Shown: piece by piece, positions 3,601 to 64,000 of the stretch
How the letters are laid out: each line of letters starts with the position of its first letter
Position numbering within the stretch: the stretch's first letter is position 1
Assembly (NCBI RefSeq): GCF_037975245.1
Contig: NC_092563.1
Coordinates: forward strand, 10,033,001-10,097,000
Direction of reading: 5' to 3'
Source: Apostichopus japonicus
Lineage: Eukaryota > Echinodermata > Holothuroidea > Aspidochirotida > Stichopodidae
Length of the DNA stretch: 64,000 nucleotides
The notes under the pieces: generated by a model
Told to the model about the DNA's origin: nothing
Database searches by the model: none
The model's input: the letters and a program-made list of their open reading frames with translations, nothing else
Program-made: the position numbers and the translations under genes

Positions 3601-3635
3601 AGTACTCGAATGATTATCTAAAAAGGAGCAAAATA

Positions 3636-13484: not shown

Positions 13485-13686
13485 GATTATTACTTTAAAA
13501 CGAAACCGACGATTACTTCAAAATAAAACCGTTCGAATGTTCTGAGGAAATGGGTGTTTTTGCGTAATGCTAAAGGATGTCACTAAAAGAAAGAAGTGAA
13601 TGCCCGTCATAGCTTGAATGGAATCCGGATTGAATGTTTTATTCTAATATCACAAAGTCCTAATCGAAATAAGTCCCCAAGACCAC

Positions 13687-30171: not shown

Positions 30172-33100
30172 CTATGGAGAATACGATGACAAAGTGCTAT
30201 GAATCTGTTACGCTGTTAAATGAATGACATTTATTATTGTTATAGCATATACGTTTAATTTGGCAGAAGGTGTGTTAACTGTTACTTACTTAAATTTAAA
30301 AATTCCGATAACATTTTGTACTGGTTCACGGAGTCACTCATCCATTCGCTAAGCATCATTACGTGGATTTTTTCCCGACCATAGGCTTCTATCCAATCAC
30401 GTAGAAAATAGTAATACATGCCCCTGAAGAGCTTCTGTAAAATAAGAAAATGTTTAGTTGGTCACCGCATTGTATACACCTTTACATTACCAGCGACATG
30501 TATCCAACATTGAATTAGAAGGTTAATCATGTCTCCCTAAAAAGATAACCAAAACTCAATTTCAATTAATAAACTTAGTTTATGTACGTGATAGAGGCCA
30601 TTTTGATGAACAACTACATGTGCAATACAAAATTCAACCATATACTGCATTACATAGCACACAACACACATGCACCGGTCTTAGAGGATGTTATATTCGA
30701 CAAACATATTATATAATGTATAGGCTGCATCTAAAACCAGATACGTTTTAAGAAAAAGTCGCCCAGGAAAGAACCTGGGCACGAAAACCAAACTACCGAA
30801 CGACTGATCCGCTCTCCAGCCCAGTCCTCTTGCATCGGGACTGTGACTGTGTGATCATCGTCGAGTGTGCATCACCATTCCCCTCGAAAGGGAACAGATA
30901 CTACACATGATCTTAGCAAAAAGGCCGAGAAGCGATCCATCTAAAACCAGATGGACAGCCTGAGAGTACCTCAGACTAAAGCCATCATCAGCAAAGTTCA
31001 GTGAACAATTTAAGAAAATGAAATTGACTGTGAAATCTGATTGACCAATTGGTCAAGAGAACATGAAAAGCGGAACATGGCGAAATCGTATTGGTCCAGC
31101 TCTTGTGACAATCACCGCTTTTGATAATCATCACGAATCGGGGAATCTGAATTAACATAACTGTCCATGACTGTCAATAACTGCCAGAACATGGCATTTA
31201 TTTTGCAGTAGGCTAGGAAATGAAATTGTACGCTGAAATTACAGCAAGAAAGCTGGATTAGACCCCGATGTGAATTGATATACTTTCCTGGATATTAACA
31301 AGCATGTTCAATACGCCGAGCCACTATTGTTGGTGCTAAGGATAAAGTTTACACTTGAAGAGAATATTCGGAAACTCCTTCCAAGTGTGACGGTCAAGCT
31401 GAAGCGATAAAGCTTGGTAGCGATGGGAGTGTATCGTACGCAGAGGTGTGTCATACCGTTTTGATGCTAGATACTTGATTCCGACTAAAGGTGAAGTCGA
31501 CCTGTGCTCGTGCACACCCCCCCCCCACCCCCGTGTAAAAGGTGTGTGAATTTTGCTTAATTATGTTATTGCTGGAACTGAAATGAAAACCAAAAAAGCA
31601 TTGGAGATATTTTGAAGAGTATTTGCCTTTACCTATATAATAGAAGCAAACATTATTAATTTTCATTGTCTGGGTAAACTTGGTAGTTTCACTGTTAAAA
31701 TTAACCATGTCATCGGCATCATCTCACATTTTGAAGAAATGATTTTGATTTTGAGATGCTTATGCAAGTTTAAGCTTAGAGCATTTAAACTATTAGTAGA
31801 GTATAATAAACTTACATGTAATTAACAGGAAACCTTTTCTCACACCTCTCGAAAGTCTGAAGTAATTTTTAAACCAGCGTGATGTCCCTCCTCGTGGTTA
31901 CTTGACATTAAGAAACTTAAAACCAATTTTTGAAGGAAATTGTTGAGCGCAGATTTTCACAAACTACCAACAGTTATTTAATTTCCACAATTATCCGGTA
32001 AGGTTATCAAACTAAGGTGAACACTGTTGCAAGTGACCAGTTTAATTCGACATATATCAATTTAAACCGGTATATGTTAATATGAATCGGTATCTGTCGA
32101 TTTAAATTGGTATATGTGGATTCCCCGTGATATGGTAAAGATAGCCCGGCAGCGATTCCCCCCCCCCCCCCAAACAGGTTTGCAATTACAGTACGGAATT
32201 TTCAGCCAATCAGATTGCTCGTGACGTCAGCATCAGTAATGACCATCGTTTGGAAGTTGGAAGACATACACTTAATCAGAAGAATGATAAGGTCCACGGG
32301 TCTTAAACTGTAAAAACATGAATGAGCTTATTGACGTCACTGAAACATGCACGGTGCTTAAGCCGAACAGATTAATATTAATTGTTGATTGACCTGTGAG
32401 TTACGAGGTTTCCTTCCAAATGCCCTAAATTTACTTTCAATGCTTGGAACACATGTTGACCTTACTTATGATACATACGCTACAATGGGTTCGTGTTTAC
32501 TTTATCCAAGATTCGTAAGCGTTGGCTTTAAGTGAAAAAAATTACACAAGGCTTCGGACTTCGGCAGAGTCAAGAAGCAACGGCTGAACACCCACCCCTG
32601 AAGATATTACGTTGATAAACAATACGTTGCTTGAGCCTGACTTGGCATTTGGCCTATTCTAGTGTCATTGATATAACATTGTTTGAAAACCGAAACTGAC
32701 TTGGCATTTGGCCCTTTCTTGCAAGTAGTTCAATACATTGGTCATATAGGCTACTATGGCTGTGAATTGTTGTTATAGACCTGGCATTTGGCATTTCTTA
32801 TCAGTAAACCGTATCAACCAAGTTTAGCTGACAATTTGAACCGGCGTGGCATTGGCCTATCACGTCAACTAACTAAAGTGTAACCGTATACGCGAAGATT
32901 TCTGTGTATATACTCACACATTGAGTTATAGCATATGCACAATACCGGAGGGAATGTTTACTTTCACAGTCTGCGTGACATTCCAGATGTTTCATTGTTA
33001 CACGATGAAAGTCGTCTGCGTTCTTTCCATGGCAGTATAAGTAACTTGAGTACTGTCTGTAAAATAATTAAATTTACCACTTTAGAACTTGCATTATAGG

Positions 33101-35218: not shown

Positions 35219-35369
35219 CTGAAATAAAACAAACATTTAACATCTTTTGCGTATTCACACCCATCACCTCCCATCGCTCCTACGCTGCAGGTATTATCAA
35301 GATTGACAAATTCATGGCGTCCACGGTCGGCGCTATCATTCTCTTACAGCTCATCATAGCGAAATCAGC

Positions 35370-36655
35370 TTACCATAGTACATATTAGTTTACCATAGTA
35401 CATATCAGCTCACCATAGTACATATCATCTTACCATAGTACATATCAGCTTAAAATAGTACAAATCAGCACACCATAGTACATATCAGCTTACCATAGTC
35501 CATATCAGCTCACCATATTACATATCAGCTTACCATGTTACATATCAGCTCACAATAGTACAAATCAGCTCACAATAGTACATATCAGCTTACCTTAGAA
35601 CATATCAGCTTACCATATACATATCAGCTTACCTTAGTCCATATCAGCTCACCATATTACATTTCAGATTACCATATTACATATCAGCTCACCATAGTAC
35701 ATATCAGCTTACCATGGTACATCTAAGCTTACCATAGTCCATATCAGCTTACTATGGTACATATCAGCTTACCATAGACATAACAGCTTACCATAGTACA
35801 TATCAGCTCACCATAGTTCATAACAGCTTATCATAGTACATATCAGCTTACCATAGTACATACCAGCTCACCATATTACATATCAGCTCACCATAGTACA
35901 TATCAGCTCATAATATTACATATCAGCTCATCATAATACAAATCAGCTCACCATAGTACATATCAGCTCACCATAGCACATCTCAGCTTACCATAGTCCA
36001 TATCAGCTCACCATATTAAATATCAGCTTACCATGTTACATATCAGCTCACAATAGTACAAATCAGCTCACAATAGTACATATCAGCTTACCTTAGAACA
36101 TATCAGCTTACCATAGTACATATCAGCTTACCATAGTACATATCAGCTCACCATAGTACATACCAGCTCACCATATTACATATCAGCTCACCATATTACA
36201 TATCAGCTCATAATATTACATATCAGCTCACCATAATACAAATCAGCTCACCATAGTACATATGAGCTTACCATAGTCCATATCAGCTTACTATAGTACA
36301 TAACAGCTTACCATAGTACATACCAGCTCACCATAGTACATATCAGCTCACCATAGTACAAATCAGCTCACCATAGTTCATATCAGCTTTTCATAGTACA
36401 TATCAGCTCATCATAGTACATATCAGCTCACCATAGTACATATCAGCTCACCATAGAACATATCAGCTCACTATAGTACATATCAGCTCATCATAGTACA
36501 TATCAGCTTACCATAGTACATATCAGCTCACCATAGAACATATCAGCTTACCATAGTACATATCAGCTCATCATAGTACATATCAGCTTACCATAGTACA
36601 TATCAGCTCACCATAGTACATATCAATACCATAGTACATCTAAGCTTACCATAGT
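35370..36655. repeat. 20-bp minisatellite (~64 units), intronic
   Basis: Tandem repeats of CACCATAGTACATATCAGCT with variants TACCATAG, TCATAG, ATTACATA and CAAATCAGCT. It lies in the interval between the stem exon and catalytic exon A of CHST15-like copy 1, so it would be transcribed if that exon link is right. Longer blocks are reiterated: the series around 35500-35600 resembles 36000-36100. Confidence 0.97.
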
Positions 36656-36738
36656 ACACACATTGACCTTTCTGCGCGTAGTGTAATACCTTTGTCTTCA
36701 GCCGAACATTTAAGGGAGAAAAGCGCAACTATCATCGC

Positions 36739-44816: not shown

Positions 44817-47800
44817 CTATGAAGAATACGATGACAAAGTGCTATGAATCTGTTAAGCTGTTAAATGAATGACATTTATTATTGTTATAGCATATACGTT
44901 TAATTTGCCAGAAGGTGTGTAAACTGTTACTTACTTAAATTTAAAAACTCCGATAACATTTTGTACTGGTTCACGGAGTCACTCATCCATTCGCTAAGCA
45001 TCACCACGTGGATTTTTTCCCGACCATAGGCTTCTATCCAATCACGTAGAAAATAGTAATACATGCCCCTGAAGAGCTTCTGTGAAATAAGAAAATGTTT
45101 AGTTGGTCACCGCATTGTATACACCTTTACATTACCAGCGACATGTATTCAACATTGAATTAGAAGGTTAATCATGTCTCCCTAAAAAGATAACCAAAAC
45201 CCAGTTTCAATTAATAAACTTAGTTTATACGTGATAGAGGCCATTTTGATAAACAACTGTGCAATACAAAATACAACCATATACTGCATTACATAGCACA
45301 CAACACACATGCACCGGTATTAGAGGATATTATATTCGACAAACATATTATATAATGTATAGGCTGCATCTAAAACCAGATACTTTTTAAGAAAAAGTCC
45401 CCCAGGAAAGAACCTGGGCACGAAAACCAAACTACCGAACGACTGATCCGCTCTCCAGCCCAGTCCTCTTGCATCGGGACTGTGACTGTGTGATCATCGT
45501 CGAGTGTGCATCACCATTCCCCTCGAAAAGGAACAGATACTACACATGATCTTAGCAAAAAGGCCGAGAAGCGATCCATCTAAAACCAGATGGACAGCCT
45601 GAGAGTACCTCAGACTAAAGCCATCATCAGCAAAGTTCAGTGAACAATTTAAGAAAATGAAATTGACTGTGAAATCTGATTGACCAATTGGTCAAGAGAA
45701 CATGAAAAGCGGAACATGGCGAAATCGTATTGGTCCAGCTCTTGTGACAATCACCGCTTTTGATAATCATCACGAATCGGGGAATCTGAATTAACATAAC
45801 TGTCCATGACTGTCAATAACTGCCAGAACATGGCATTTATTTTGCAGTAGGCTAGGAAATGAAACTGTACGCTGAAATTACAGCAAGAAAGTTTGGATTA
45901 TACCCCGATATGAATTGATATACTTTCCTGGATATTAACAAGCATGTTCAATACGCCGAGCCACTATTGTTGGTGCTAAGGATAAAGTTTACACTTGAAG
46001 AGAATATTCGGAAACTCCTGCCAAGTGTGACGTTCAAGTTGAAGCGATAAAGCTTGGTTGCGATGTGAGTGATATCGTTCGTAGAGGTGTGTCATACCGT
46101 GTTGATGCTAGATCCTTGATTCCGACTAAAGGTGAAGTCGACCTGAACTCATGCACCCACCCCCACCCACCCCCACCCCCACCCCCCCAAGTAAAAGGTG
46201 TGTAAATTTTGCTTAATTATTTTGTAGGTGGAACTGAAATGAAAGCCAGAAAAGCATTGAGATATTTTGAAGAGTATTTGCCTTTAATAGAATCAAACAT
46301 TATTAATTTCCTTTGTCTAGGTAAGCTTGGTAGTTTCACTGTTAAATCGAACCATGTCATCGGCATCGTCTCAAATTGAGATGCATATGGAAGTTTAAGC
46401 TTACAGCATTTAAACTTTTAGTAGAGTATAATAAACTTACATGTAATTAACAGGAAACCTGTTCTAACACCTCTCGAAGTCTGAAGTAATTTTTAAACGA
46501 GCGTGATGTCCCTCCTCGTGGTTACTTAACATTAAAACTTAAAACCAATTTTTGAAGGAAATTGTTGAGCGCAGATTTTTACATACTACCATCGGTTATT
46601 TTATATCCACATTTATCCGGTAAGGTTATCAAACTAAGGAGAAAACTGTTGCAAGTGACCAGTTTAATTCGACATATACCAGTTTAATCTGGTTTATGTT
46701 AATATGAATCGGTATCTGTCGATTTAAATTGGTATATGTGGATTCCCCGTGATGTGGTAAAGATAGCCCGGCAGCGATTTTTTCCCCAAACAGGTTTGCA
46801 ATTATGAAATTTTCAGCCAATCAGATTGCTCGTGACATCAGCATCAGTAATGACCATCGCTTGGAAGTTGGAAGACATACACTGAATCAGAAGAATGGTA
46901 AGGTCCACGTGTCTTTAAAAGTCGAAACATGAATGAGTTTATTGACGTCACTGAAACATGCATGGTGCTTAAGCCGAACAGATTAATATTAGTTGTTGAT
47001 TGACCTGTGACACTTAGTTAAGTCTAGTTACGAGGTTTCCTTCCAAACGCCCTAACTTTACTTTTTATGCTTGGAACACATGTTGACCTTACTTATGATA
47101 CATACGCTACATTGGGTTCGTGTTTACTTTATCCAAGATTCGTTAGCCGTTCAATTGAAATCTGAATTCGTTCGTGGAATGGGTACTTTAAAGTCAACTT
47201 CACGACGTGAGTTCCCGAGTCTTGAATGAATATACGCAAAACAAGACAACAGCAAAAGTTTGAATCGGTACAGGACGTGAGTGATTTGCCTGACTATGTA
47301 AGTACTCTAGTAAGTCTAAATTCCCTGTCTAAAATTTGGAAAATGGTACGCTTCAGTGTACAGTTAGATCTCGAGAAGAGAGGACGTATTTGCCGCTTTA
47401 GAAAATCATTGTGCTTTAGCTATTGTGTGTGCTTACTGAACGGGTAGCGCGCAGCTGATAGCTGTATAGCATTATAAATTCCAAACAGTATTTGGCTGAT
47501 TAGAGCAAGAGATTTAAGCCACGCAGTATTTGGCTGACGTTGGCTTTAAATGAAAACAAAATGACACTAAATTAAACTACAAAAACTATACGTTGCTTGA
47601 GACTGACTTGGTATTTGACCTATTCTGTCAGTGATATTACATTGTTTGAAAACCGAAACTGACTTGGCATTTGGCCCTTTCTTGCCGTAGTCCAATACAT
47701 TGGTAATATAGGCTACTCTGGCTGTGAAATGCTGTTATAGACTTGGCATTTCTTATCAGTAAACCGTATCAACCAAGTTTAGCTGACAATTTGAACCGGC

Positions 47801-50800
47801 ATGGCATTGGCCTATCACGTCAACTAACTACAGTGTAACCGTATACGCGAAGGTTTCTGTGTATATACTCACACATTGAGTTATAGCATATGCACAATAC
47901 CGGAGGGAATGTTTACTTTCACAGTCTGCGTGACATTCCAGATGTTTCATTGTTTGACGATGAAAGTCGTCTGCGTTCTTTCCATGGCAGTATAAGTAAC
48001 TTGAGTACTGTCTGTAAAATAATTAAATTTACCACTTTAGAACTTGCATAATAGGCATAATATCTTTTATTTTGCCAATAACATTTTTATTTCCATGTGC
48101 TCCAACACCATCATAACAAATCTTGACAAACTACTATGAAAGTAATGAGATTTCATCAGTAGACAGAGAAGTGAATGAAAATTGTTACATGAATGTAATA
48201 AAGTGTAGCAATTCAAGCATAATGTACCTCAACAGGCTATCCGTGTGAGGAACATTCAAAGTAACATTCGGGACCTCGCACAATGGGGACCTCGCATGCT
48301 AGTAGCATGGACGTACCTCCATGGTATTACCCTGTCGAGATATTCTCATGCTATCACTGCGGTCCGTCACAGTCGGACAACTATACGTTGACGAACTACA
48401 AATTTTGAGTTCCCACTTACACTGCCATCAGGTATGGTCACCCTCGGACATATAGAGACCACCTCACGGTGCCACCCTCAACCAAAGGGAAACCTAACAC
48501 CTATGGAACACCTTCTTTCATTCTCGTAGACAATCGTCAAGCATAGGTTCATATTCGGAGGTGGATTAGGGACAAGTTCGTACGTCCTCGCAGATTAGGG
48601 GTTCACCCAAGATGACCACTATCTTAGCTCTTGGCACACGGAAAGAATATCAGAATAAGTAATCACATTTCAACATGCAATGATCACGGAAACCACTATA
48701 TAGATTGATATGAAATCATCTTTATCACTAACTACTCCATACATTGATTTCTTCGCAACAACAAATACAAGAACGAAGAACATACAACACTTACCTACTG
48801 ACTGGTTCTCGTAAAATGACCACTATTTTAGCATTTGGTTGAAATTCGTGAAGGAGATCTGCCATTACGAATGGTGGTTCAGTTGCCTCCGGGTATAAGG
48901 TCATCCAATTCTCTCCTATGTCCCAAGAAGTTGTAACGGAGCCATCGCCTGTGACAATACAAACAGCGTCATTTTAACCACGAGAAAAATCATCCTCTAA
49001 TACACTCTAAACACAATCTAGTCAAGCGAGGCTAAAGTCTAGTCATATCGACTGGTTTACGTTAGTCAACGATTATCCCGCCATAATCTTGGTAGAGATG
49101 CCTTCACGACTAACCCAAAAGGTCGCCTGACCAGAACATAATGGTCACAGTTCTATTTTAATCTGGTCCTACAATAAATGTCAGCACTGGGACGAAACTC
49201 ACTAGTCAATCAGGTTGATATATTCGTCACATGAAAAAGCGCGGGGAAATATTAACAATTGTAGCGCCACGGTACGGCCTAGCGTACTGCACTGAACTAT
49301 AGTACATTGTACACATACGTACACGACGAGCAAGGAACGTACAGCAGGGAGTTAGCAGCCAGACGGTTACGGTACGAAAAATCAAAAAAATATGATCATC
49401 CAGTGATATTGTCAGTAACCATTGCAAGGTTAGTATATTAGACCAGTTTTCTTTGGGCCTTTGGCCAGTGTCGTTTGTTAGTCACTTAAAAAGTATATAG
49501 TATATTAGACCATAAAGTGTGTATTTTCGATTATTCCAACTTGTGTACGAACAAGCTAAGATCTAGGTCCTAGGCTAGGCCTATCATGCAGTAGCTATAG
49601 GCGAATTGCCTAACGTTAAACCTAATGACGTTACAGACCGGCAGCCCAGGGCACTTTGATCAAACGAACGAGGTACCAATATCTGAGTATTGGAACATTT
49701 GTGGAAAAACCCAGTATATCCAAAAGTGGATGTCTGCCGTGGTTTTTCGCTCTGCTGCATGTGGCCCCTGGGGCCGGTTAAAGGGGGCCCAAAAATGCAT
49801 CTGATCAAACGAACGAGGTACCACTCGAAACCAATGTCAACTTAATGCATGAATGCCACATAGTACTGAATGGCCCATGCCAGACAAATTTTCTGCTGCA
49901 AAGGGCCCGCCAGACGCCCAAGAAGGGCCCCTAAAAAAATGCATCTGATCAAACGAACGAGGTACCACTTGAAACCAATGTCAACTTAATGCATGAATGC
50001 CACAAAGTACTGAATGGCCTATGCCAGAAAATTTTCTACTGCTAACGGCCCGCCAGACGCCCCCAAATATGGCCCAAAATGCCCATTATCGTATCATTGA
50101 CCCAGATTAAATATGCAAGGTACCACTCAAAACCGGTTTGGAACCACACAAAAACAATATTAAATGCAAAAGTACTTTCCACAGAGTAAAGAACTGCCAA
50201 TGCAAGACAAATTTTCTTCTGCATAGGTCCCACCAGATAGAAAGAATAGGTGGCCCAATGTGGCCCTATATATGGGCCTAAAGAATTGGATATATGTGCC
50301 TTGTAACATGACATTTCAAGCTCATGGTTATATTGTTTCCAGCATAAATTGGAGTTACTGTACACAAGACCAGTGTTTTATCTTATTTAGCTATTCGCTG
50401 CTCTAAGCAAAATAAAGATAACACTTTCACCTAAGCCTCTAAATATTTTAGGATTTGCTGGCCTGGGCAAAAATTACAGTTCCCCACATTATAATTCTAA
50501 CACTCTGAGGAAGAGTCTTGCCTGGCTTGGATCCACAGAACTACGGTTGGAAGAGCAAGAATGGGTGCTACAGCCCTGACTGGTTTGAGGGACCGGCTCT
50601 CCCAGATCATCTATTCCAAGAGGGGGAACTGAGCGAAGATTTTCAAAGTAGCCGACCAGACGTGGCTTCCGAGTTTGATGCCGATGATTCAAGTACTGAA
50701 CCATCTTGGAGTGATGACTCCGACGATGAAACATAGATTTGAGCTTCCAATGTCTTTTTAGAATCAAGTTCATGGGAATACTTAATTTTCATAAACTTAC

Positions 50801-53800
50801 TAATGATTCTTTTGAGATCTGTCTGAATGACAAATGCAGTGTCTTTTTACATCACACACTCCAGTGTTTAATCACTGTCAAGAGACATGAATTCTCAGTT
50901 CTTATGCTTCGAACCTAACATGTGTCATGTTCAGAGTAATCACATAGTGATCTTTTGTTACTATCTTTGCCAATTATGATTTTAGTACATTTTAAACTAG
51001 CAAGATGACTTTCTTGAAAGGTAAAAGATTCCTTCATAGATGAAAACAAAAACCCTCATCTAGCATTCATATTTCTGAAAAATGGATGCCACATCTATTT
51101 GTTGGACTTGTTACAAGCTATTCGAATTGAATTAGTGTAATGATGGAAGTTCTAAAAGACCAAGATGGAGTAATATAGGCCAATTACTCATTTTATATTT
51201 TGTATCAAGGAATGGAGTCATACGTGGTGATATCAGTATTTGTTTGTTCAATCTTAGCATTTTAAGTCCTTTAAAGAGTGTACCTAGCATAAAGGTACAT
51301 ATACATTTATATGCTTCAATTATGTATCTTTCAAAAACCATATTGGACAGTTTCAACCCAAACCTTTATCGTTAAGTACACGTTATAAAGCATTTTCACC
51401 ATTGTTTGATAATTGTTTCTTTGTCTGAGCTTAAGAAACAAAACAATCTCTTTTGTTCGACTACATGTATGTCTTAAGATGACACTTAAGCGTTCTTTCT
51501 CAAGATTTTAAACTTTGTAGATTTACAATGCTAACGTAAACACAGTGTTTCAAGATACAAAATGATTTTGGGTTTCTTATTTACAATACATAAACTGATT
51601 TTAATCTGCTCCAGTGTTTCCAGCGAAACAAAGTAACTGCCAAGTTAAACACTGCTCACGATACAAAGTACTGTCTGGATAAAAGAAAAAAGAATGGATA
51701 AAAGGAAAAAGAATGGATTTGAGAATGCATTATAACTGTCAGGATCTCCCTCAAAGACTGAGTTCGCGTCATTTTTGTTTTGCTCAATGAAATGTTCAGT
51801 AATTGATACACCTACTAGTATACTAATCTCATTATTCCATGGGCCTATGTAGCGGGAAGGAATTTGAATAATTCAGGATGTTCTTGATTGTTATAGATTG
51901 GTTTCTTGTGGTATCTTAACTATTTAAACTGTATACTTTTTTTTACGTGTGGTGTCCACTTTGCAGAAGAAAATTTGTATTGTATTGGCATTTCTTTACT
52001 CTGTGGAATGCTACAAATGTCATGTCACAAGACACATATAGTCTGCATCGATATACAATTCATTAGGCCCATATAGGGCCGCATTGGGCCACCTATACTT
52101 TCCATCAAGTGGGACCTATGCAGAAGAAAATTTGTCTTGCATTGGCAGTTCTTTACTCTGTGGAAAGTACCTTTGCATTTAATATTGGTTTTGTGTGGTA
52201 CCAACTATGATTGATCATGGCCCATTTGGGGGCCCTCTTTTAGTGTGTCTGTTAGCCCGTTTGTAGCAGAAAATTTGTCTGGCATGATGATTTCCATAGT
52301 CTGTAAGATCAACCCGAACATTCCAAACCGATTTTGAGTGGTACCTTGCATATTTAATCTGGGTCAATGCTACGCTAACGGGCATTTGGGCCATATTTGG
52401 GGGCGTCTGGCGGGCCATTAGCAGCAGAAACTTTGTCTGGCATAGGCCATTCAGTACTTTTTGGCATTCATGCATTAAGTTGACATTGGTTTCAAGTGGT
52501 ACCTCGTTCGTTTGATCAAATGCATTTTTAGGGGCCCTTTTGGGGCGTCTGGCGGGCCCTTTGTAGCAGAAAATTTGTCTGGCATGATGATTTCCATAGT
52601 CTGTAAGATCAACCCGAACATTCCGAACCGGTTTTGAGTGGTACCTTGCATATTTAATCTGGGTCAATGCTACGCTAATGGGCATTTGGGCCATATTTGG
52701 GGGCGTCTGGCGGGCCCTTAGCAGCAGAAAATTTGTCTGGCATAGGCCATTCAGTACTTTGTGGCATTCATGCATTAAGTTGACATTGGTTTCAAGTGGT
52801 ACCTCGTTCGTTTGATCAGATGCATTTTTTTAGGGGCCCTTCTTGGGCGTCTGGCGGGCCCTTTGCAGCAGAAAATTTGTCTGACATGGGCCATTCAGTA
52901 CTATGTGGCATTCATGCATTAAGTTGACATTGGTTTCGAGTGGTACCTCGTTCGTTTGATCAGATGCATTTTTGGGCCCCCTTTAACCGGCCCCAGGGGC
53001 CACATGCAGCAGAGCGACCACGGCAGACATCCACTTTTGTATATATATTGGGTTTTTCCACAAATGTTCCAATACTCAGATATTGCTACCTCGTTCGTTT
53101 GATCAAAGTGCACTGGGCTGCCGGTCTATTAAGCTGCCTTGTAGTTGTAGTAGTTGTACAGCACAGTTTATCGTAACAGTAGGCCTCCGTATATTTACAG
53201 TATCATGGTGGCCCCGGTATGCACGCGTTTCTCATGTTTGCAATGGATAATTTCTTTACAAAATAACAAACCTAAATTAAACTTAATATTTATAATCTGT
53301 ATTAGAAACTTTAGCCTTAGGGGGATAGGACCTTGGCTATATTATTCTTGAAATATTTTAGGGGGATAAATTCACAGCAGTGTTTCTCTTGCACTTTCAG
53401 GGGGGACATAGCCTAGGCTTAGGTCCTAGGCCATATTATTTATACCTAGATTAGGTGTGAGTTAAGGATTAGCCTCCAATTAGGGTCACCCTAAGATAAC
53501 GAATTAACTAGAATAGTGTGTATGGGATTGTGTAGTTGCGTCCGAAACTGTTACACTAAATAAGCTGATTATTCCTAGGGCCCTATAGCCCCCGCCCCCA
53601 GGCCTAGCCCTAAATAGTTTTCATAAAATACAGAGGCTAGGCCTATGTTTCATACGAAACATCAACTGAACATGACGCCAATCTTTTACTACCAGTTTGT
53701 CCACTGACCATCCTATCCAACAATCCCGTTAACAATTCACAGGAGACTACACTCCCCCTTCCAAAATAAACATTGGGGACCTTGGAGCAATCTAACAGCC

Positions 53801-56800
53801 TATTGCTGCCACAGCTGTGTCATATCAATTTATAGGCCTAGTTGTCAGTAATATAGAGGGGGAATATTTCTGGACAATTGCACTGACTTGTCCGGAATTT
53901 TTGGCTAAAATTTGTTATATATTCTAGCTGCATGAGTTGGGACAATTTTTTCTGCTATTTTTTAATTTGTACAAAACAGTTCCGATTCAGAACAAAGGTG
54001 GGTGGGTGTTTAATTTGTTGTAGCTGTTTGTAGGGAGTCATATAGCCTTGGACTAGGCTTTTTTCAAGATGGAATATTCCTCGCTTTACCTGTGGTACCG
54101 TGAACCGCAGTTGATCCCCCTAGGCTAACCCTAATTCCATTGGAAAAAAAATAGGACATCTTTTACGGGGTGTTTCATTCAACTTTTTGGAAATACAACA
54201 ATTTCAAACATAAATGTATTTGGTTATCATTGTACACTTGACAAATGAAAATGTTGCTACCATAGCGGATTGATTAATGTTTGCACATGTTTCTTTTCCA
54301 TACAGGTATCAAATGCATTCAGGCTTCTGTATCACTGCATAGTAATTTCACTTTCATTTCTACTGTACATTTTAGTAATGGGATGTGATTAAATAGTTGA
54401 ATTGTGACTGGTATCGTACCGTACATGTTTACCCACATGCTGTACAAAATATGCACATGAACATTAGGGATGCGAACAAATGACAAAAGTTGTATGTTTA
54501 TCACATTGGCAGATAGACGTCGTTTAATTGTGGAAGAGGATGCTACTAGCGAAGTGGTTAAGAAAGTCTATTCTTGGCTATTTGAAGATGAAGAGGTACT
54601 GTATTAATATGTCTTTGTAGATATTATTTATTATACAGTAGTCTGCGTAAAAGTAAAATTCAATCATGTGGTTTCAAAAGTTATTGACATTTGAATATAT
54701 TCACTTTATGCCCACCACTTGTTCGAACCACGACTTTGTTTTTCAAAAATCAATTCAAGACAGTGTTGCGCTAAGCAGCGCGATTGCAGGATTCCCACAC
54801 TTTTTTTGCTGATACCGCTATTGGGAATTTGTAGGGGGGATGTTCCCCCTTAAAAAGAAAACCACTTTGTTTTATTCTGAGCTAGAGCCCGATCTATACC
54901 TTTATCAGCAAGATCACTCCGCAAAACCTCATGTCCTCATCCCAAGACTTGGGGAGCCTACTGCTCCTACATTGACCAGCTACAGTAGTCTCTCTCTACT
55001 TCTTTACCAATTCGCATCTTCCATCCCTTTCGACATGTCTAAACCATCTCAATCTACGTCTCTGAACATAATCCCGAATATGTGTTAGTCCTAAGCGATC
55101 TCTTAACTTCTCAGGTGAATTTACCATATGTACTGTATAATCTAATTGATCTCATTTAACCATAGATACTACTTGAATTAAAGCGACTTGAAGGAAAGAC
55201 GACAATGGCACAGTTGCTTGGTGAAGGGCTTTCCAAGTATGGAGATGCCATAATCCGCTGCACTTTGAAGATGAAGCATCCCACTGTCATAGATACATCC
55301 ATGGAGAAGGACGAGGGTGCCCGTTAAGGTACTAAGGTAGTAACAATTCAATCTGTAATTCACTATTCAAGTGATCATCACCCAGGTATGTGCTGGGTCT
55401 TCAAAATGGACTACGAGCAAAGTCTGAGGCAGGGGTGGATGCAAAATATGTCTTGGTAAGGGGTATAACCATTCAGATGTATGGTAGTGAAAAATAAACA
55501 CCTTCATTAGACATTAACGTTTGTCGTCTTGCATCATACAGTCTGAGGAAAATAGGGCGCATCCGTACATACTCAGACTGTGGTAGCACTAAAAGGCTAG
55601 TGCACGCATTTGTCTCTTCACATCTTGACTCTTGCAACAGACTCATTTATGGACTGCCAAATAAGCTCCAGCGTTGTACGAGCTGCCAGGTTGGTTACCT
55701 TATCTAGGAAGTGTGAACACATAACCCCCATCCTTGTAAATCTCCACTGGTTACAAGTGAAGAAGCGTATCATGTGTAAGTTAATGCTTCTGACCTACAA
55801 AATATTAAATAAACTTGCTCCATACTATCTATGTAAACTTCTCAATATCAATGAACCGGTACATATTCTCAGGTCAAATGCTGCTACAACACTTATTGTA
55901 CAAATGTCAGCACCATTACTTACGGTGAGAGTTCTTTTTTCAGCAGCTGCTAAACTCTGAAACCAACTACCACCACATGTTTGAAATGCTAAATCTATAT
56001 GTAAATTTAGGACCTTGTTAAGACTTACTAGCAGAGGGTTGTGTGATTTTAAATTATGCTGATTTATATCAGTGGTTTTTTTTAAATCACTGATTTAAAT
56101 CACTTTTCTAATTCTTGGCAGGAAAAGTTGAATTTGTGGTCAGCATATTCTCTGAAATCAAGCAGTTCCTTATAAAATAGAGTCTCAATCAAGTATCAAA
56201 GCAATTTCAGTAAATCTGGGGGGGGGGGGGGGTTGTATTTTCAGGGAGAAAAATCCTTGTCACATACACCGGTATGGCATGAGGCCTATCATGCTAAAAC
56301 AAATTGAACAATTCTAGAAATTGCCTGCTAGAATCCCCTCAGAGTTCAGTTAAGTTCAGTAGAATAAGGATCAGGATGGACCCTGTGAAAGACCCTGTAC
56401 CACAGATAACCCAGACTGCCAGATATGATCATGGATGAACACAATCAAGTGCTCAGATGATAACGAGACAGGCTGTGTATTGACGGTAGATTGCATAAAT
56501 TATGGCTGTGAAGTACTTCATTTGGTACAAACAAGTGTCTGTGTTCAACAAAGGGAAATTGGTACAGTATCATGGGCCCCTTAGTGGAGGGGATAAAGGG
56601 CCTAATTTTGAAATTATATTCAAGACTGTTGACTTCCCTTGATTGTCCCGAAATCAAATTAAATCATTGGGCTGACTGCTCGTATGTGATATGGGTGGGT
56701 ATAGATGTTTTTGGAAGATTTACGTAACATTTGAGAGGAAATTGAACTTTTGATTATTGCAAAATTTATTCGATTATTAAAAAAAAAAAAAAATCAACTC

Positions 56801-59800
56801 TGAATTAGCATTTATATTTGCAATATGGGTAATGTTTTGTATAATTATATTTTTTCTGTGTGCAGTGCATTGCAGCATTGTGGTCTTGGACGGAATGCCC
56901 TATATAAAAACGTTTTATTATGATTAAGGTTATTATAACATGTTTGAAGTTATGGATATGGATATAGAATGTCTATTCCAATTTCCAAAAATATATTGTT
57001 CAATATGCAAATCCATGGGTGGAAGTAGGTGGTATGTGACAACCTGCCCCCACTTCTCCCTATATGCCTATATGTATTATAGGCTACACGATATGCAGTT
57101 TGATCCATTTATATGATGCAATGTTACATTGTTACAAGCTGAGTATATGGAAATCTAGTCTACTTACTCTACTTTGGAAACAAGAGGCATTTCAATTTAT
57201 CACTGTCTGCATATTCTCAAATAATATCTTCCTTGTTCAACTTTCACACTAGTTCATGCTCTGTTGCCAGCTGAATCCTGAGGTTCAAATTTTCATGTGT
57301 CAATCTGCTTGCTAGTCTGCTCTCTATTATCTTCATTTTACTGAAGACCTCAGAATATGATATATGGTTGTTAATTCAGGGAAAACATGTTCTCGGACTT
57401 CAGGAATCTGTAGGTATCAATGAAACCTATCTGCTTTGGGTCCAAGATACGAGTTTGACAACTGATACATATTCTTGACAAATGGAGCAACTCTTTCAAT
57501 ACAATCTCAGTATTTGATATTTTTCCATTAATGTTTCTATATTTTGCTTCAAATGTTCCTTATCAGTTATCATTGTCTTGAATCCCTCAAGCTGAAACAA
57601 TGACATGGATGCAATCATTTTTTATGGCCCATGCCAGTAGGGGCCCACGACAAATAACTGAACAATTGGCATAACTTAAAGATGCTTGCTTGGGTTGAGC
57701 TCATACTTGATATTAGTTAGCTAAGTTGCCTAGACCTTATCAAATGATACAAATATCTTTGCTGAAAATAAGACCTGTGATGTATTTAGTACTCTACTTT
57801 AATATTATCACCTAAGCAATTTATCGAGTATTGAGTATTGCTCTCCGGACTGCAGATGAGTGAATCTGTGATATTTTTGTCCTATCGATGTTACGAAATA
57901 TGACATAATATCACTCTTCTGAAATGTCATGATGTTATGAGTGCTTTAACATTCTGTTGTTGATTTTTCTTTTAGAGTCTAGAATGCATGCAGCAATTCT
58001 GTCAGTTCCGACTCTACTGAATGAGAAGTTGGGTGCTATGATTGTATTTGCAGATGAGGATAGTGTAAGTACCCAATGTATTATTTAAATCAACAGTATG
58101 TAAACTATGGGTCAAGGCCATCAGAGGTGGTCTGATATTGTATGTTACAGTGTCGAGGGTTCATCATGATAGTGCCCTGGTAGTGTTTCCTTTGGGGTAT
58201 TCAGCAATTTTAGGTCTGATGCCATATGGGCTATTTCAGGAAATAACTCAAAATTAATATTTTCCTACAGATTGTATGGTCACAATGCTTAGAGTTTAAT
58301 TGTCACGATAGTGTTTTGGTAGTGCTCCTTTGGGGTGTTTGGAATTTTAGGCCAAAGGTCATGTATGGGCCATATGGGCCATTTTGAACTCCTGAACTCC
58401 GCCTGAAATCACACAAAATGTTTCTTTTCCTATGAATTCTATGGTGCAGTGTTGAGCATTTTTCACACTGGTACTTAGGTAGTGCCTCCTTTGGGTTTTT
58501 AGGATTTGGGGGCCTAAGTCACCTGTAGACCATATGGGCCAATTTATGAAATCACTCAAAATGATACTTTTCATACAAATTTGCCCTAAAATTGGTTTAG
58601 CCCTAACATTTGTTGGGGCATCTTTTGGCATCCTTATTTCTGGGGGCCTTGAAATATTTGGGCCCTGAAAACCTTCTGTCTGCAACAAAGGCCCGCACAT
58701 CTGATCATTATTCCCTAACTAAATATCACATGTATGACCTGGGAGTGTTCATAGCTGTAAATATAGTAAGGGCATCATCACAAAGGTAGAATAGACTAGT
58801 ATGTATGTGATAACTGGAACAGAATGTTGGACAGATTTCAATCTGTAGTTGCAGTAACCATAACCCAATGTGGATTTCCTGATCAGCCCCAAGTGTATTA
58901 AAATCATCTAGTGGAATGAATCCCTACCATGATGTAATTAGCTGTAACAAGATGTCATAACTCATGGCAAATATTCATTTCTCTCTAAAATACACGGAAC
59001 CAGTGCACCATTTAGCTCTGTTGTTTCATTTATACTCTGCTATTATTTATATCATCAAAAATAGTATTACTTGTAGTGAATACGATGTACTGTAAATTGA
59101 TTTGAAAAAATATTTAAGAAATTATTTATTTTGATTCCTTCGTTGGTGGAGTACATTTGTTTGTTGGTCACTCATGGCCATCACGGTCGATCAGCCACCC
59201 CTCCCATTTTCTGAAACTGGAAAGCGCTGTATATTGAATACATATACCTTAATATCTTTGCAGGTTACAGACTTGTCAGACGTGCCAGTTTATATCCAGG
59301 TGTTGCATATATATATATATCCATGTGCAATTATTTGGCAGTGTTCTATGTCCTAAATATGGCATAGAGCCTTTGCTGAAGAAAACCCTTCAGTTTTTAA
59401 AAAAATCATTTTGAATGTTGATGATACTACACCGGCAGATAAATCAGTCAATAAAATTCTGGAGAAACTAAACATGCAAATCGCTAAAAATTGATGGCCT
59501 AATTACTGCTCCAGTCACCTACCATTTTTTGTACAGTTTTTTTGGCTCAAACTGTCATCACATTTATAACATAGAATACTGCCTATCAATTGCACTAGCA
59601 TATATGAGTCAAAATAGGCTAAGGTGTTATAAAACTGTAACTAACTTGCAAATAATAAGTCATTGAAAATTTTTTCATTATCATTTGAGCTGTTGCGTGT
59701 GTTAGTTTTGACTTACAAAATGTTGTTATTTTTGGTTACGATGCCGAAGGCCGAGTAACCTATGCGATCAAGTTGGCGTGTGTGAGGGTGCGTTTGTTTG

Positions 59801-62800
59801 CTATCTGACCGAGGACTTGAACAAAGCAATTTCAGGTCCTCGGTTGTGATTTCTAAAGAATCACCACGTCCTCGGAAGAATTCTATTGTATGGGGTATTG
59901 TTAAGGTTAGGGTACGTGGATTTGAACAATGGAAAATACAATGGGGTCCTCAGTCTGAATTTAATGCAAACATGTGTGTGTGGGTATGCGTTTATTTTGC
60001 TATCTGACCGAGGACTTGAACAAAAGAATTTCAGGTCCTCGGTTGTGATTTCTAAAGAATCACCACGTCCTCGGAAGAATTCTATTGTATGGGGTATTGT
60101 TAATGTTACGGTACGTGGATTTGAACAATGGAAAATACAATGGGGTCCTCGGTCTGAACGAAACACAAACATGTGTGTGTGTGTGTGTGATGTGACAGCT
60201 TGCTCGTAAACACGATATCTCAACAACGACACATTGGATCAATGTCATATTGGACTGGTGATGTGTGGATGGTCCCTATTGTTTTTGTTCTCCATCACAT
60301 GAATATTAATAAGTGGGTAGGGCTTAAAGTAAAATTCTTAAAATGTCAATATCTTCGCAACGGTATGTCCGATCTGCTTCATACTTGGTATGGTGATGTA
60401 AGTGGTTCATTGTCACATGACAATGGAATTTCATCTAATTAATATTCATGAGTAGGTGGGGCTTAATCCTTAATTGCTAGAAATAGCTTGTATACCTGAA
60501 ATCTTAGAAATTAAATGTTGAATTACTGTCATTTTGAACTAGTACATGCTCCATGATTAGTAGATGTTCCCTATTGTTTTTGTTGTTCATGACATGAATA
60601 TTAATGAGTAGGCAGCAGTTAAAGTGAAATTCTTAAAATGTCAATAACTTTGCAACGGTATAACCGATCATCTCCATACTTTGTTGATTGGTGGTGGATA
60701 ATAATAGTTACATTTTCATGTGAAAATAACATGTAACCTCATTAATATTCATGTGTTTGTTGGCCATATAGCATTTGTTTTCCCGAATTCCTAAACTCCT
60801 GTCATTCGTCACGTTTGACATGTTTTCCTGGTTCCTGGGAGCTTGCTGATCTTATCTATATTTGTTTTGCTTTATAAAACCATGAAATTGGCTAGCCAGG
60901 CCATTAAAGGAATAGTCCAGTGACAAATTAAACTGGACTGAAAAAAAGTAACCTTTGCAATTAAGTTGGCATATGTGTATGTTGTGATGAGTTGGCATGT
61001 TTGTATGTTTTGATCAAGTTTGCGTGTGGGTATGGGTGTATATGTATGTTGCATAAATAGCTGGCTCAGACAATTAAAGGGATAGTCTATAGTGAAAATA
61101 GTAAATGAACTTAATAATCTGGTATTACTGTACATGTACCTATAGAGTATAGGGAAATCTTATGTGAGTGGGGTAGATTAATGTGTTGGTAGTAAGGTGT
61201 GAAACTGGTAAAATCTGATGGGTGTCAGGTGGGGGGGGGGTTGTCAGATGAGTAGGGTGATATTGGGATCAGGGTTGTAGGATGGTAGGTGAGGCTGCAG
61301 GTGGTATGATGGTAAGGGTTCCGCTCTGGGTTGGGGATATGGGTTGTGTCGTATGATCCCCATGTGTTTGTCTGGAGAGGGGGTGTGGGGTGGTGAAATG
61401 CCTAGAGTCAACTATATCACTTTTTTTCAACTTTATATGTACATCGATAAAGGCATTAATTTTTGGTTTTGCTTACGATGGCCAGGTAATCTACAGTTGA
61501 GCATGTTTGCAAGTGTATGTATAATCTTAAAAACAATATATTTAATTACTGTAAATGTATTGAATAACTTGTAGATATGCTACATTATCATTACATGGAC
61601 CTCATTGTTTTTTGTTGTCCAGTACATGAATATGTGGGTGGGGCTTGTAATCAAATTCTTAAAATGTCGATATTTTTTTTCAAATATATGTCTGATCACC
61701 TTCATACTTGGTAGGTTGGTACAGTAGTGCCACATGAAACTGAGATTTCATTTATATTCATGAGTGCAACTGACAACTTTATGTCTGATCAGCTTCAGTT
61801 TGGTTTCAGTTGTCTGGCAATAAGTACAATACAGGTATATAACAATAACAAATTCTGACTTATCTTATTTCATAAACTCTCATCGGCATCAGAACCACTA
61901 AACCTTTGGGTTTTCTGGTTCTTCAATTACTGATGAAATCAGACACTCTTTTGTGCTTACTATTGAGGTGAAGCATATGTAGTGTTTAAGAGAAAATATA
62001 AAATGTGATTCCAAATTAATACAGAAATTCTTGCTTTCTTTTTTTCATGTGAGAGGGCTTGATGGTCTAGCAGTGGTTAAGGCCCAATCAGGTTTTATAT
62101 CCAAGAATTGTTCCCACCAGTTAGCTCAACAGACAGCTTTGTACCTATAAGGGAGTTGTCGCAGGTTCGAATCCGTGGTGGGTCATATAAAACTAGTATA
62201 GAAAAACTACTTTTATCCATGGGCAAGACTAACTGGATTAGTCAAGTGACTGCTGGACTAATCATTTAGGTCGCTTGACAAAAGCCTGGTCGATAGAGCA
62301 TTGTTGAATGACTTGTAAAAACTGGTCATGTGACTAATTGAATTAGTCAATTGACATCTTGACTAAGCGTTTAGGTCGCTTGACTAAAGCCTGGTCGATA
62401 GAGGCATAATTGAATGACTAGTAAAAACTGGTCATGTGACCAGGTTTACTTAGTCATATGACCAGAACTATTTGGTCACTGGACCAAAAGTTAGTCAAGT
62501 GACTAGAATTAATTGGTCGATAGAAGCATTGTCTGGACTAATGTACTCTAGTCATCTTGACTAGAGTATGTTTACAGTGTATCACTAAATCCTCAAGATC
62601 TAACCATTATACCTGTTACAAATGGCAACATTTTTATTTTTCAAGGTGAATGAAGTTTCAAACTGAATTACGGGCTCTCTGAAGTTCACGAATATTCACA
62701 CATCTCTCTTTTCTTTGGTGGTGGTGGTAGGGGAGGGGGAGGGGGTCTCCTATGTATTGTCCAGATATACAACGACTGAACCATTCCACACACTAAATTC

Positions 62801-64000
62801 TTATTGAAATTGGTCGATGAAAGAAACTTTAGCTATACAATTGAATATGGACTTCTTTGGACTTAAAAGTTCTCAAGGCCACGTTTAACAATATGTCTGA
62901 TTACAACCTAGAACACCCAAAGGTTGGCAAAACTAGTACTGCGGATCAACGGAGACTCGAGTCACTGATTTAATTATCGAAAGTATTACAATTACCGTAA
63001 AATTATCTAAGTAACAAGTCAGAACACGATCCAAAAAGTTTCATAGTTACCAAGCTTGACGCATCCTTGTGACCCCGACGGGGCGTTCAAGGGACTACGT
63101 CCCCGGGCCAGGTCGATAATAAGGGGGTCCGGGAAAATATAGAGTGGTCCTGGAATACGGTGGGGTCCGCAAAATATGGAATAAAGTATAGTGTAGTCTT
63201 ATTTCATAGTATGCTGTACCACCTAAGGAAAAATTCGACAATTCGTAGTGGAATAATTATCTGCTGGGCCCGATCTGGCCTTTCGACGCCTCCGGGCTCC
63301 TTAACCACCCACATAGTAGTGTTTGGTACACTATGATAAAGAAAAGGCTCCAACTCAAGTCTGGACTGTAGTTAATAAAATGTCGTATAGGGTGATTGTT
63401 TTACTCACCGAGGACTTTGTCTCTATTTTGCTGTATGCTGTTTACACCAAACGTGCTAAACCAATTAAGGTACCATTCAAATGGTGCGTCATTCCCAGCA
63501 CCCGTCATTTTCCGAATCTTTACCACTGAAAATAAAAATTCATATTTCACCAAACAATTGAGATACACATACTTCTATTGACTTCAAATGCCATTGGACC
63601 TGCAGAAAAATGATATAGATCTGAAACCTACTAAGGTGGATCTCGAAAACAATCATGATGTGCTTTCGACTCTTGGGTGGTATTGTGCCGACATCCATTG
63701 CATGCATGTAGTGTGGTGTTTATCTTTATAGCGTATGCTAACCTATACAAATCGAAGTTTGTTATATTTTCTTAAAATGTTCCAAGAATGATAGCAGTCA
63801 AAAGTAGAATGGCAAGCTGACATTGAGCGTAGCACCTCTTAAGTCCCCGATTCCGAACCTTCACACGCTATCAGCTATTCATGCATTCAAGACATCGACA
63901 CATGTTTCTGGTTTGAAAAGAGTAAGCAAATATTAATAAGCTATTGATTTTCGACATACTTACCTTCTCTGCCGTGTATTGGCAGGCCTGTCCATCCTAA
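44626..64000 (-). CDS. CHST15-like gene, copy 2 (5' end outside window)
   Basis: Paralogue of the gene at 29981-35218. Minus-strand exons: A' 64000(+)-63964 (partial), B' 63525-63409, C' 48948-48795, D' 48011-47873, E' 45079-44935, F' 44816-44626 (stop TAA 44628-44626). Every complete exon has the same length and splice phase as copy 1, with no frame break, so the gene looks usable. Product: Golgi PAPS-dependent GalNAc-4-sulfate 6-O-sulfotransferase type. Substitutions include SYDIGEAW to SWDIGENW (exon C), FHRVT to FHRQT (D), VMML to VVML (E), ERKKKR to EKKKKR (F) and VLK to VVK (B). The intron between B' and C' carries a 13.6-kb insertion, making it about 14.5 kb. The PAPS-loop codons of exon A' are beyond the window. 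Confidence 0.9.
44935..45079 (-). CDS. CHST15-like copy 2 exon E'
   Basis: 145 nt between ATTTCACAG and GTAAGTAAC. Encodes the same KLFRGMYYYFLRDWIEAYGR segment; VMML is changed to VVML and other changes are synonymous. Confidence 0.9.
45382..45576 (-). mobile_element. U2-snRNA-headed retro-insert, copy 2
   Basis: Same element as at 30743-30937, with the same 15-bp flanking repeats (45367-45381 and 45577-45591). It therefore inserted before the segmental duplication. Only a few differences were noticed, in a hairpin arm and the tail (CGAAAGGG versus CGAAAAGG; GTCGCCC versus GTCCCCC). Confidence 0.85.
47873..48011 (-). CDS. CHST15-like copy 2 exon D'
   Basis: 139 nt between TTTTACAG and GTGAGTATA. 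Identical motif order to copy 1, with Val to Gln in FHR(V/Q)TMKH. Confidence 0.88.
48795..48948 (-). CDS. CHST15-like copy 2 exon C'
   Basis: 154 nt between TTGTCACAG and GTAAGTGTT. Keeps GDGS and VVILREPVSR. The segment after GDGSVTTS reads WDIGENW, differing from copy 1 YDIGEAW. Confidence 0.9.
50506..50736 (+). CDS. acidic C-terminal exon-like ORF inside the fold-back element
   Basis: Open plus-strand frame encoding about 72 residues: LPGLDPQNYGWKSKNGCYSP then DWFEGPALPDHLFQEG, ending in an acidic tail STEPSWSDDSDDET and a stop at 50734-50736. It has no ATG at the left edge, so it reads like a last exon. It is the only non-repetitive coding-like piece between the arms, so it could be the 3' end of a transposon-encoded protein. 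The YGW...W-x-GPxLP layout resembles tails I associate with transposon-borne CXC-type proteins, but this is only an impression. Confidence 0.4.
50740..52039. other. unique AT-rich spacer of the fold-back element
   Basis: No exon or repeat recognised between the acidic ORF and the right arm. Confidence 0.35.
52255..52865. repeat. 300-bp tandem duplication in the right arm
   Basis: TTGTAGCAGAAAATTTGTCT occurs at 52261 and 52561, exactly 300 bp apart, with the intervening sequence repeated nearly identically. Divisibility by three yields a spurious 186-codon minus-strand frame with two matching halves. Confidence 0.92.
54513..54595 (+). CDS. exon-like segment 1, unknown protein in the giant element
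   Basis: 83 nt between CACATTGGCAG and GTACTG encode 27 residues (RRRLIVEEDATSEVVKKVYS then WLFEDEE). It ends in phase 0, compatible with the next segment at 55166. Family unknown. Confidence 0.35.
55166..55327 (+). CDS. exon-like segment 2, unknown protein in the giant element
   Basis: After AACCATAG the frame reads ILLELKRLEGKTTMAQLLGE, then GLSKYGDAIIRCTLKMKHPT, and reaches TAA at 55325-55327. A GT follows immediately (AAG|GTACTA). Phase 0 matches segment 1. The amphipathic Leu/Lys pattern suggests a helical bundle. No family recognised; could be captured host exons or element-encoded. Confidence 0.35.
   Translation: MLLELKRLEGKTTMAQLLGEGLSKYGDAIIRCTLKMKHPTVIDTSMEKDEGAR
55530..55970 (+). 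pseudogene. CR1/L2-type LINE C-terminal fragment
   Basis: Two plus-strand frames together read the tail of a CR1-like polymerase: LRKIGRIRTYSDCGSTKRLV, SSHLDSCNRLIYGLP and LQR (55545-55670), then RAARLVTLSRKCEHITPILV, LHWLQVKKRIMCKLMLLTYK and LNKLAPYYL (55680-55840). One frameshift and a premature end make it dead; the upstream polymerase core is absent. Confidence 0.85.
57976..58064 (+). CDS. exon-like segment 3, unknown protein in the giant element
   Basis: 89 nt between TTCTTTTAG and a consensus GTAAGT donor encode SRMHAAILSVPTLLNEKLGA then MIVFADEDS. It ends in phase 0. Good splice signals on both sides raise it above chance, but no family is recognised. Confidence 0.4.
58150..58570. repeat. 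~140-bp degenerate tandem repeat (3 units)
   Basis: Three diverged units with the order GATAGTG..TGGTAGTG, CCTTTGGGGT, TTTTAGG, CATATGGGCCA and AAATCACTCAAAAT. No coding content. Confidence 0.8.
59264..59494 (+). CDS. exon-like segments 4 and 5, unknown protein in the giant element
   Basis: 59264-59299 follows TATCTTTGCAG and encodes VTDLSDVPVYIQ before a GTGTTG donor, in phase with segment 3. A further open stretch from about 59365 encodes FAEENPSVFKKIILNVDDTT and NKILEKLNMQIAKN, ending at TGA 59492-59494. The junction between the two is not phase-consistent with the visible AG sites, so the second part is less certain. Confidence 0.25.
59801..60195. repeat. 199-bp tandem duplication
   Basis: CTATCTGACCGAGGACTTGA at 59801 and 60000. 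Each unit contains CCTCGGTTGTGATTTCTAAA and GAATTCTATTGTATGGGGTA and ends in a TG-rich run. It gives artefactual frames on both strands. Confidence 0.93.
60220..61790. repeat. dispersed ~230-bp repeat, 3 diverged copies
   Basis: Copies at about 60240-60475, 60555-60770 and 61600-61780 share CCTATTGTTTTTGTT, CATGAATATTAAT, AAATTCTTAAAATGTC and TTCATACTTGGT motifs in the same order. Between them lies G/T-rich noncoding sequence (60870-61340). Confidence 0.75.
62050..62190 (+). mobile_element. tRNA-like SINE fragment
   Basis: A-box-like TGGTCTAGCAGTGGTTAA (62063-62080) and B box GGTTCGAATCC (62163-62173). The spacing is longer than in a tRNA, so the head is altered or partly duplicated. It lies just inside the subterminal zone of the giant element. 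Confidence 0.5.
62200..62579. repeat. right subterminal repeat zone of the giant element
   Basis: Dense array of TAGTCAAGTGAC, GGTCATGTGAC and GGTCGATAGA motifs in both orientations, with two partly repeated ~130-bp blocks (TTAGGTCGCTTGAC ... AAAACTGGTCATGTGAC). These may be transposase binding sites. Confidence 0.8.
62890..63300. mobile_element. 411-bp insertion specific to copy 2, TTAAC flanks
   Basis: Copy 1 reads GCCACGCTTAACCACCCAC at about 34346; copy 2 is interrupted there. TTAAC is repeated on both sides (62885-62889 and 63301-63305). The insert has no obvious terminal inverted repeats. Its 3' half is GC-rich with GACCCCGACGGGGCG and CGTCCCCGGGCC palindromes. The TTAA(C) target recalls TTAA-specific DNA transposons, but the class is unassigned. 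Confidence 0.65.
63409..63525 (-). CDS. CHST15-like copy 2 exon B'
   Basis: 117 nt between TTTTCAG and GTGAGTAAA, separated from exon C' by the giant insertion. Encodes the same linker as copy 1, with VLK changed to VVK. Confidence 0.87.
63964..64000 (-). CDS. CHST15-like copy 2 exon A' (partial)
   Basis: Only the last 37 nt are inside the window, next to the GTAAGTATG donor. They match the end of copy 1 exon A (RLGWTGLPIH..REG). Confidence 0.8.

Follow-up and report, generated by a model that had tools for sequence, protein, structure and literature searches.

A probable CACTA/EnSpm-type family of long, apparently non-coding DNA transposons in Apostichopus japonicus

A complete insertion and its empty site

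The window analysed here, a stretch of 64,000 nucleotides of the holothurian Apostichopus japonicus (assembly GCF_037975245.1, contig NC_092563.1, positions 10,033,001 to 10,097,000), contains two paralogous segments, and the second of them is interrupted by a complete transposable element at 49003..62579. The element, given here on the plus strand in an arbitrary orientation, is 13,577 bp long with a nested insert included. It is bounded by CACTCTAAACA...TGTTTACAGTG and flanked on the left (49001..49002) and on the right (62580..62581) by a duplicated TA that belongs to the flank sequence. In alignments made within the window, the left flank (47583-49002) matches 32617-34047 at 96.1% identity and the right flank (62580-62889) matches 34046-34355 at 95.5% identity. 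The two alignments overlap by exactly the TA at 34046-34047, where the paralogous segment runs on uninterrupted, and this TA is the empty target. The terminal inverted repeats, CACTCTAAACACAATCTAGTCAAG at the 5' end (49003..49026, plus strand) and CACTGTAAACATACTCTAGTCAAG at the 3' end (62556..62579, minus strand), agree at 21 of 24 positions. An earlier note on this DNA had described a complete element with boundaries exact to the base, an empty paralogous site and CACTST-TAAACA terminal repeats. All three descriptions are borne out, and 49003-62579 is confirmed as a real insertion with boundaries exact to the base. We refer to this element as the window copy and to its family as family A.

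Genomic copies, target sites and age

The window's assembly (671,581,487 bases in 35 contigs) was searched with both ends of the element. The first 201 bp gave 29 matches and the last 221 bp gave 30, each over nearly the whole length, and pairing of the ends led to 28 copies with both ends, one 5'-truncated copy and one lone 3' end. The 29 family-A intervals range from 9,312 to 19,561 bp (median 10,210). Besides the window copy, 20 copies were read whole and the other eight intervals were read as 50-bp end pieces. A perfect 2-bp target duplication is present in all 28 both-ended copies (the 20 whole copies, the window copy and seven of the other eight) and a 3-bp duplication in none; in the 5'-truncated copy no target duplication was seen. 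Since the copy at C3:10202281 (c11) and the window copy occupy one target site, 27 sites are independent, with TA at 17, TG at four, AA at three, TT at two and CA at one. Other copies sharing the ends with TA duplications, for which the earlier note had proposed a search, are thus found as far as the ends and the 2-bp duplications are concerned, but a strict TA rule fails at 10 of the 27 sites as well as in a second family, B, described below. The family has inverted CACTSTAAACA ends, which start with CACTC or CACTG in the 28 copies except for c14 (TACTC and TTGTA ends) and which lack the A at position five of the plant CACTA motif.

The window copy reaches 13.6 kb because an unrelated element of 3,495 bp has inserted into it at 49634..53128. 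This foreign element, which lies outside family A, has long and complex inverted repeats with (C/T)AGACCGGCAGCCCAG ends and is flanked by a 3-bp duplication, TTA. It is missing at that point in 19 of the 20 whole copies, the remaining one (c11) holding a 4,094-bp version there, while a 4,131-bp relative sits elsewhere within c09 with a TAC duplication. Subtraction gives 10,079 bp for the window copy before the nested insertion, and a stand-in sequence of 10,081 bp was used for the family-A computations. The natural size is therefore not the 13.6 kb assumed earlier; the family length is about 10.1 kb, and 3,495 bp of the window copy are foreign. Longer copies contain inserts, which measure about 9.3 kb in c01, 4.1 kb each in c09 and c11 and 3.5 kb in the window copy. 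A copy at C7:1244284-1256389, where the first interior match begins late, seems to have about 2.2 kb of additional sequence close to the nested-insert point of the window copy.

Pairwise identity among 18 aligned sequences (the stand-in and 17 copies, with c01, c09 and c11 left out for their inserts and gaps not counted) is 98.5-99.8%, with a median of 98.9%. BLAST of the 20 copies against the stand-in, in which gaps are counted, gave 96.9-99.0%. In the tree of the family, terminal branches are long and internal ones short, and c13/c15, c16/c18 and c03/c08 form close pairs.

Subterminal motifs

A palindromic motif, (T/C)(A/G)GTCAnnTGAC(C/T)(A/G), is arrayed at the 3' end of the window copy (62227..62579) in tandem units of about 105 bp, which number two in the window copy and three in most of the copies listed. 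Half-sites ([AG]GTCA/TGAC[CT]) were counted against 300 dinucleotide shuffles for the ends and 40 shuffles for the interior. The last 360 bp contain 18 half-sites (shuffle mean 2.3, maximum 7), whereas the first 260 bp (49003..49262), with half-sites of the AGTCA/TGACT form, contain six (mean 1.4, maximum 6); the 28 in the interior (53130-62219) are below the shuffle mean of 37.8. A scan for the 14-bp palindrome [TC][AG]GTCAnnTGAC[CT][AG], allowing at most one mismatch, found six at the 3' end and none at the 5' end or in the interior. The subterminal array pointed out in the earlier note is thus strong at the 3' end but only weakly developed at the 5' end.

Coding content and interior

Family A looks non-coding. 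A six-frame scan of the window copy returned no Pfam family at E<=1, and the longest open reading frame of the stand-in, 125 residues, is within the range of 200 mononucleotide shuffles, whose maxima average 114 and go up to 225. Frame clusters that are open in half or more of the 18 aligned sequences number ten, and no third-position excess of variable sites was seen in the eight of these ten widely open frames that were tested, the counts being small. Rfam gave three matches in the window, none of them inside the element. This is in line with the earlier description of a very long, apparently non-autonomous family without recognisable transposase, while the suggestion that it might bear cargo is unsupported, as the same six-frame scan revealed no cargo genes. 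A conserved frame of 119 residues at 55601-55960 was considered as a cargo gene and rejected, because it looks to us like a frameshifted remnant of a long interspersed nuclear element and Pfam gave only DCA16 (E 0.014, below the cut-off). In the nested repeat region Pfam gave weak matches, the best to Ntox24 (E 0.0088, below the cut-off); they lie within tandem repeats and were taken as chance.

The apparently non-coding interior (53132..62226) was searched in two parts, in which the best 40 of 56 and the best 40 of 2849 candidates were scored, so the counts are minimum values and a source locus may have been missed. Among the matches listed, its long stretches are found again in family-A copies alone, one of them the 3'-only copy near C17:23.68 Mb. 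A module at 56099..56795 is common to at least seven other loci at 85-92% identity, 60832-61916 to at least five loci at about 85%, and parts of 59737-60401 to at least three loci at 84-96%. In our reading the interior is probably a mosaic of older repeats. One of the module loci, L097, where the module lies upstream of transposase-like frames at a distance of about 1.4 kb, was considered as an ancestor of family A. The idea was dropped because a transposase match is found within a few kb at only one of the seven module loci; at a second, on C17, the distance is about 14 kb.

Transposase loci and related families

Matches to CACTA-type transposases in the genome (20 to Transposase_21 and 67 to one transposase fragment) fall in 68 distinct places, fragments included. 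Open frames of 699 residues with one score occur at eight of these places and frames of 820 residues with one score at three. Contig C17 (37 Mb) holds 31 of the 68 places, a striking concentration.

A search with the terminal inverted repeat pattern (at most two mismatches) hit 200 places, compared with 66 for its reversed control, and about the first 100 of them were examined. This led to the identification of family B (CACTGTAAACAWTAGTTAGTCA), whose 30 paired intervals span 3.4-13.5 kb, with 25 at 4.2-4.9 kb, and which has the terminal core and the subterminal motif in common with family A. All 14 family-B copies checked show a perfect 2-bp target duplication (TA in six, TG in four, CA in two, AA and CT in one each); two of them have one flanking sequence in opposite orientation, and one, L053, lies in a TA repeat that makes the length of its duplication less certain. 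Neither L053 nor L054, another family-B copy, has a frame over 130 residues, and L053 has no Pfam match above the cut-off. A family-B element at C7:3195444-3200288 is nested within a family-A copy (C7:3194389-3208661).

A second pattern identified a family C (CACTGTAAATTTTAATTAGTCA), which is represented by 20 ends and shares the terminal core and the subterminal motif with A and B. In 5.4 kb from one of these ends (L056), a second end was not recognised and there are no frames of 100 residues or more. A GAS2 match (PF02187) at this locus is above the cut-off (E 1.9e-6), but no stretch of it passes alone and the frame is read through stops. A looser pattern (CACTSTAAA, a gap of 0-14, AGTCA) did no better overall than its reversed control (256 forward and 224 reverse places against 255 and 274), and among the matches listed, which cover C1 to part of C7, none is near the 699- or 717-residue transposase places on C2, C4 and C5.

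Assignment of the family and alternative explanations

Family A is probably a young, non-autonomous cut-and-paste DNA transposon of the CACTA/EnSpm type, about 10 kb in length. The CACT ends, the varied 2-bp duplications and the subterminal array together fit CACTA/EnSpm, so that kinship with animal EnSpm/CACTA elements, as proposed in the earlier note, is favoured; it is not proven, because a transposase with family-A ends was not found. Several observations weigh against this assignment. The ends read CACTS and not CACTA, and animal TRC elements start with CCC in passages of PMC1636069. The 5' 260 bp lack the palindrome, and their half-sites merely equal the shuffle maximum. None of the 68 transposase places is inside the 29 family-A or 30 family-B intervals or within 20 kb of these intervals or of 15 family-C ends, and none is near five further family-C ends compared by eye. 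At the two transposase loci whose surroundings were read, L097 and L055 (around an 820-residue frame whose length and score are shared by three places), neither the terminal inverted repeat nor the motif was recognised. The stand-in has 11 open frames of at least 80 residues against 5.6 in mononucleotide shuffles, and single copies hold frames of up to 197 residues (c19, among nine copies examined), which leaves some room for small exons. Finally, a 388-residue open frame elsewhere in the window (12354-13517) matched nothing in Pfam, and the match of a host exon described below is under its cut-off, indicating that the sensitivity of Pfam in this genome is limited.

These observations bear on two rival readings. 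Family A might itself be autonomous, with a transposase that is divided among numerous small exons or has diverged beyond the reach of Pfam. Autonomous CACTA elements have a size range that includes 10 kb, the surplus of frames of at least 80 residues is in keeping with this reading, and a partner with these ends is not visible, given two family-B copies without a frame over 130 residues and 5.4 kb at one family-C end without a frame of 100 residues or more. We nevertheless regard autonomy as quite unlikely, since the window copy has no Pfam match at E<=1 in six frames, the lengths of the family-A frames are inside the shuffle range and the eight tested frames show no third-position excess, whereas long frames of CACTA type are detected in large numbers at other places in the genome by six-frame searches. 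It is also unlikely that family A is a member of a different superfamily with short duplications (Mirage, Tc1/mariner or ISL2EU-like) and has CACTA-like ends by chance. CACT-like ends alone are weak evidence, TA is preferred in both families (17 of 27 independent family-A sites and 6 of 14 family-B copies), and Mirage (CMC) and Tc1/mariner resemble family A in their short terminal inverted repeats. In Mirage and Tc1/mariner, however, TA duplication is obligate, whereas perfect 2-bp duplications of TG, CA, AA, TT or CT are found at 10 of 27 family-A sites and in 8 of 14 family-B copies. This argues against both groups, including the Mirage kinship suggested earlier, and favours an animal CACTA/EnSpm-type element. 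Subterminal repeats in both orientations, moreover, are described for CACTA elements in passages of PMC8978399.

A segmental duplication or an assembly artefact in place of transposition would be consistent with c11, which duplicates the whole site of the window copy with 300-bp flanks that are 100% and 99.7% identical. To this extent the concern that the ends might lie inside a larger duplicated segment was justified, but for c11 only. The 26 further both-ended copies have different flanks and an exact 2-bp duplication each, and the target-site duplications at 27 independent sites refute such an explanation, which we give practically no credence.

Under the favoured CACTA/EnSpm assignment, a CACTA-type (Transposase_21/TRC-like) transposase from elsewhere in the genome would bind the subterminal array, cut at CACT/AGTG and insert the element at staggered 2-bp targets with a preference for TA. 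With the cis signals in the ends, the interior would be dispensable passenger DNA, and the family may have originated as a mosaic of older repeats that was bracketed by two such ends and then amplified. A broader hypothesis, which we consider possible but rather doubtful, is that A (about 10 kb), B (about 4.2-4.9 kb) and C form a clan of large elements, none with recognisable genes, that have in common only a terminal core of 9-11 bp and the AGTCAnnTGACT-type subterminal motif. A transposase would cross-mobilise all of them without its own element having to share their longer ends, and any stretch between two such arrays would be mobile, whatever its length.

The host locus and its surroundings

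A putative host exon with a weak match to Sulfotransfer_3 (PF13469, E 0.0045, 17.7 bits against a curated cut-off of 27) is located at 48795..48948 on the minus strand, and its 3' splice site, with splice sites read by eye, is 54 bp from the insertion. The window copy appears to have inserted into a putative intron of a gene that is one of two tandem sulfotransferase-like paralogues; it would then itself have received the second element, before a later duplication of the filled gene copy (C3:10202281). The 300-bp flanks are 96.7-97.6% identical to the empty paralogue and 99.7-100% identical to the filled duplicate. Judged from sequence comparison, the probable order of events is gene duplication, family-A insertion, nested insertion and duplication of the filled copy.

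Both paralogous segments carry a U2 small nuclear RNA match (30849-30936 and 45488-45575), with scores of 46.3 and 46.9 against a gathering score of 46. The segments also differ in length at 62890-63299 and 47148-47582, where alignment gaps make smaller insertions possible. A 20-bp tandem repeat of about 65 copies lies shortly past the first segment (35364-36658), and a 57-bp tandem repeat of about 62 copies with 96% matches occupies 3633-7171.

Comparison with known systems and significance

Gene-less DNA transposons of animals usually measure a few hundred bases, and family A is unusually long for an element of this kind. It was not described in the titles and abstract openings of the literature found; Repbase lay outside that search, and a prior deposition there is possible. 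For animal CACTA elements, 2-bp duplications are reported in parts of PMC1636069 and PMC4298943. SmTRC1 and the TRC group of animal CACTA/EnSpm elements resemble family A in their short terminal inverted repeats and 2-bp duplications but, according to PMC1636069, have CCC ends, as against CACTS-TAAACA in family A, and the word 'subterminal' does not occur in the main text of that paper. Transposases of the TRC Pfam family do occur in this genome, none of them within family A. Among animal CACTA families that are large and poor in transposase, the closest precedent found is Spongebob (EnSpm-4N1_HM) of Hydra, which sections of PMC4298943 describe as a 5,836-bp element with 2-bp duplications, many copies and no intact transposase recognised. 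Its terminal inverted repeats start with CCC, it is about half as long, and a degenerate transposase with stop codons or frameshifts is suspected in it (same sections), whereas no trace was seen in family A.

Plant CACTA elements such as pvCACTA1 (PMC4938662) and Jozin (PMC8978399) share with family A the CACT ends and direct and inverted subterminal repeats, which in family A are clear at the 3' end; according to excerpts of these papers, which also mention plant CACTA elements over 20 kb, they begin with CACTA and duplicate 3 bp, in contrast to the CACTS and 2 bp of family A in an animal host. pvCACTA1 is non-autonomous and its partner was not found, as is apparently the case for family A, but it is small (excerpts of PMC4938662).

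That a family of about 10 kb has 28 copies that differ so little, with perfect duplications, suggests that a CACTA-like system of an animal is capable of moving at least 10 kb of passenger DNA, and the cis-end sequences of family A could be tested as a large-cargo vector. With three families that have common ends and a partner that is not visible, the recognition of foreign elements by a transposase becomes directly testable in one genome.

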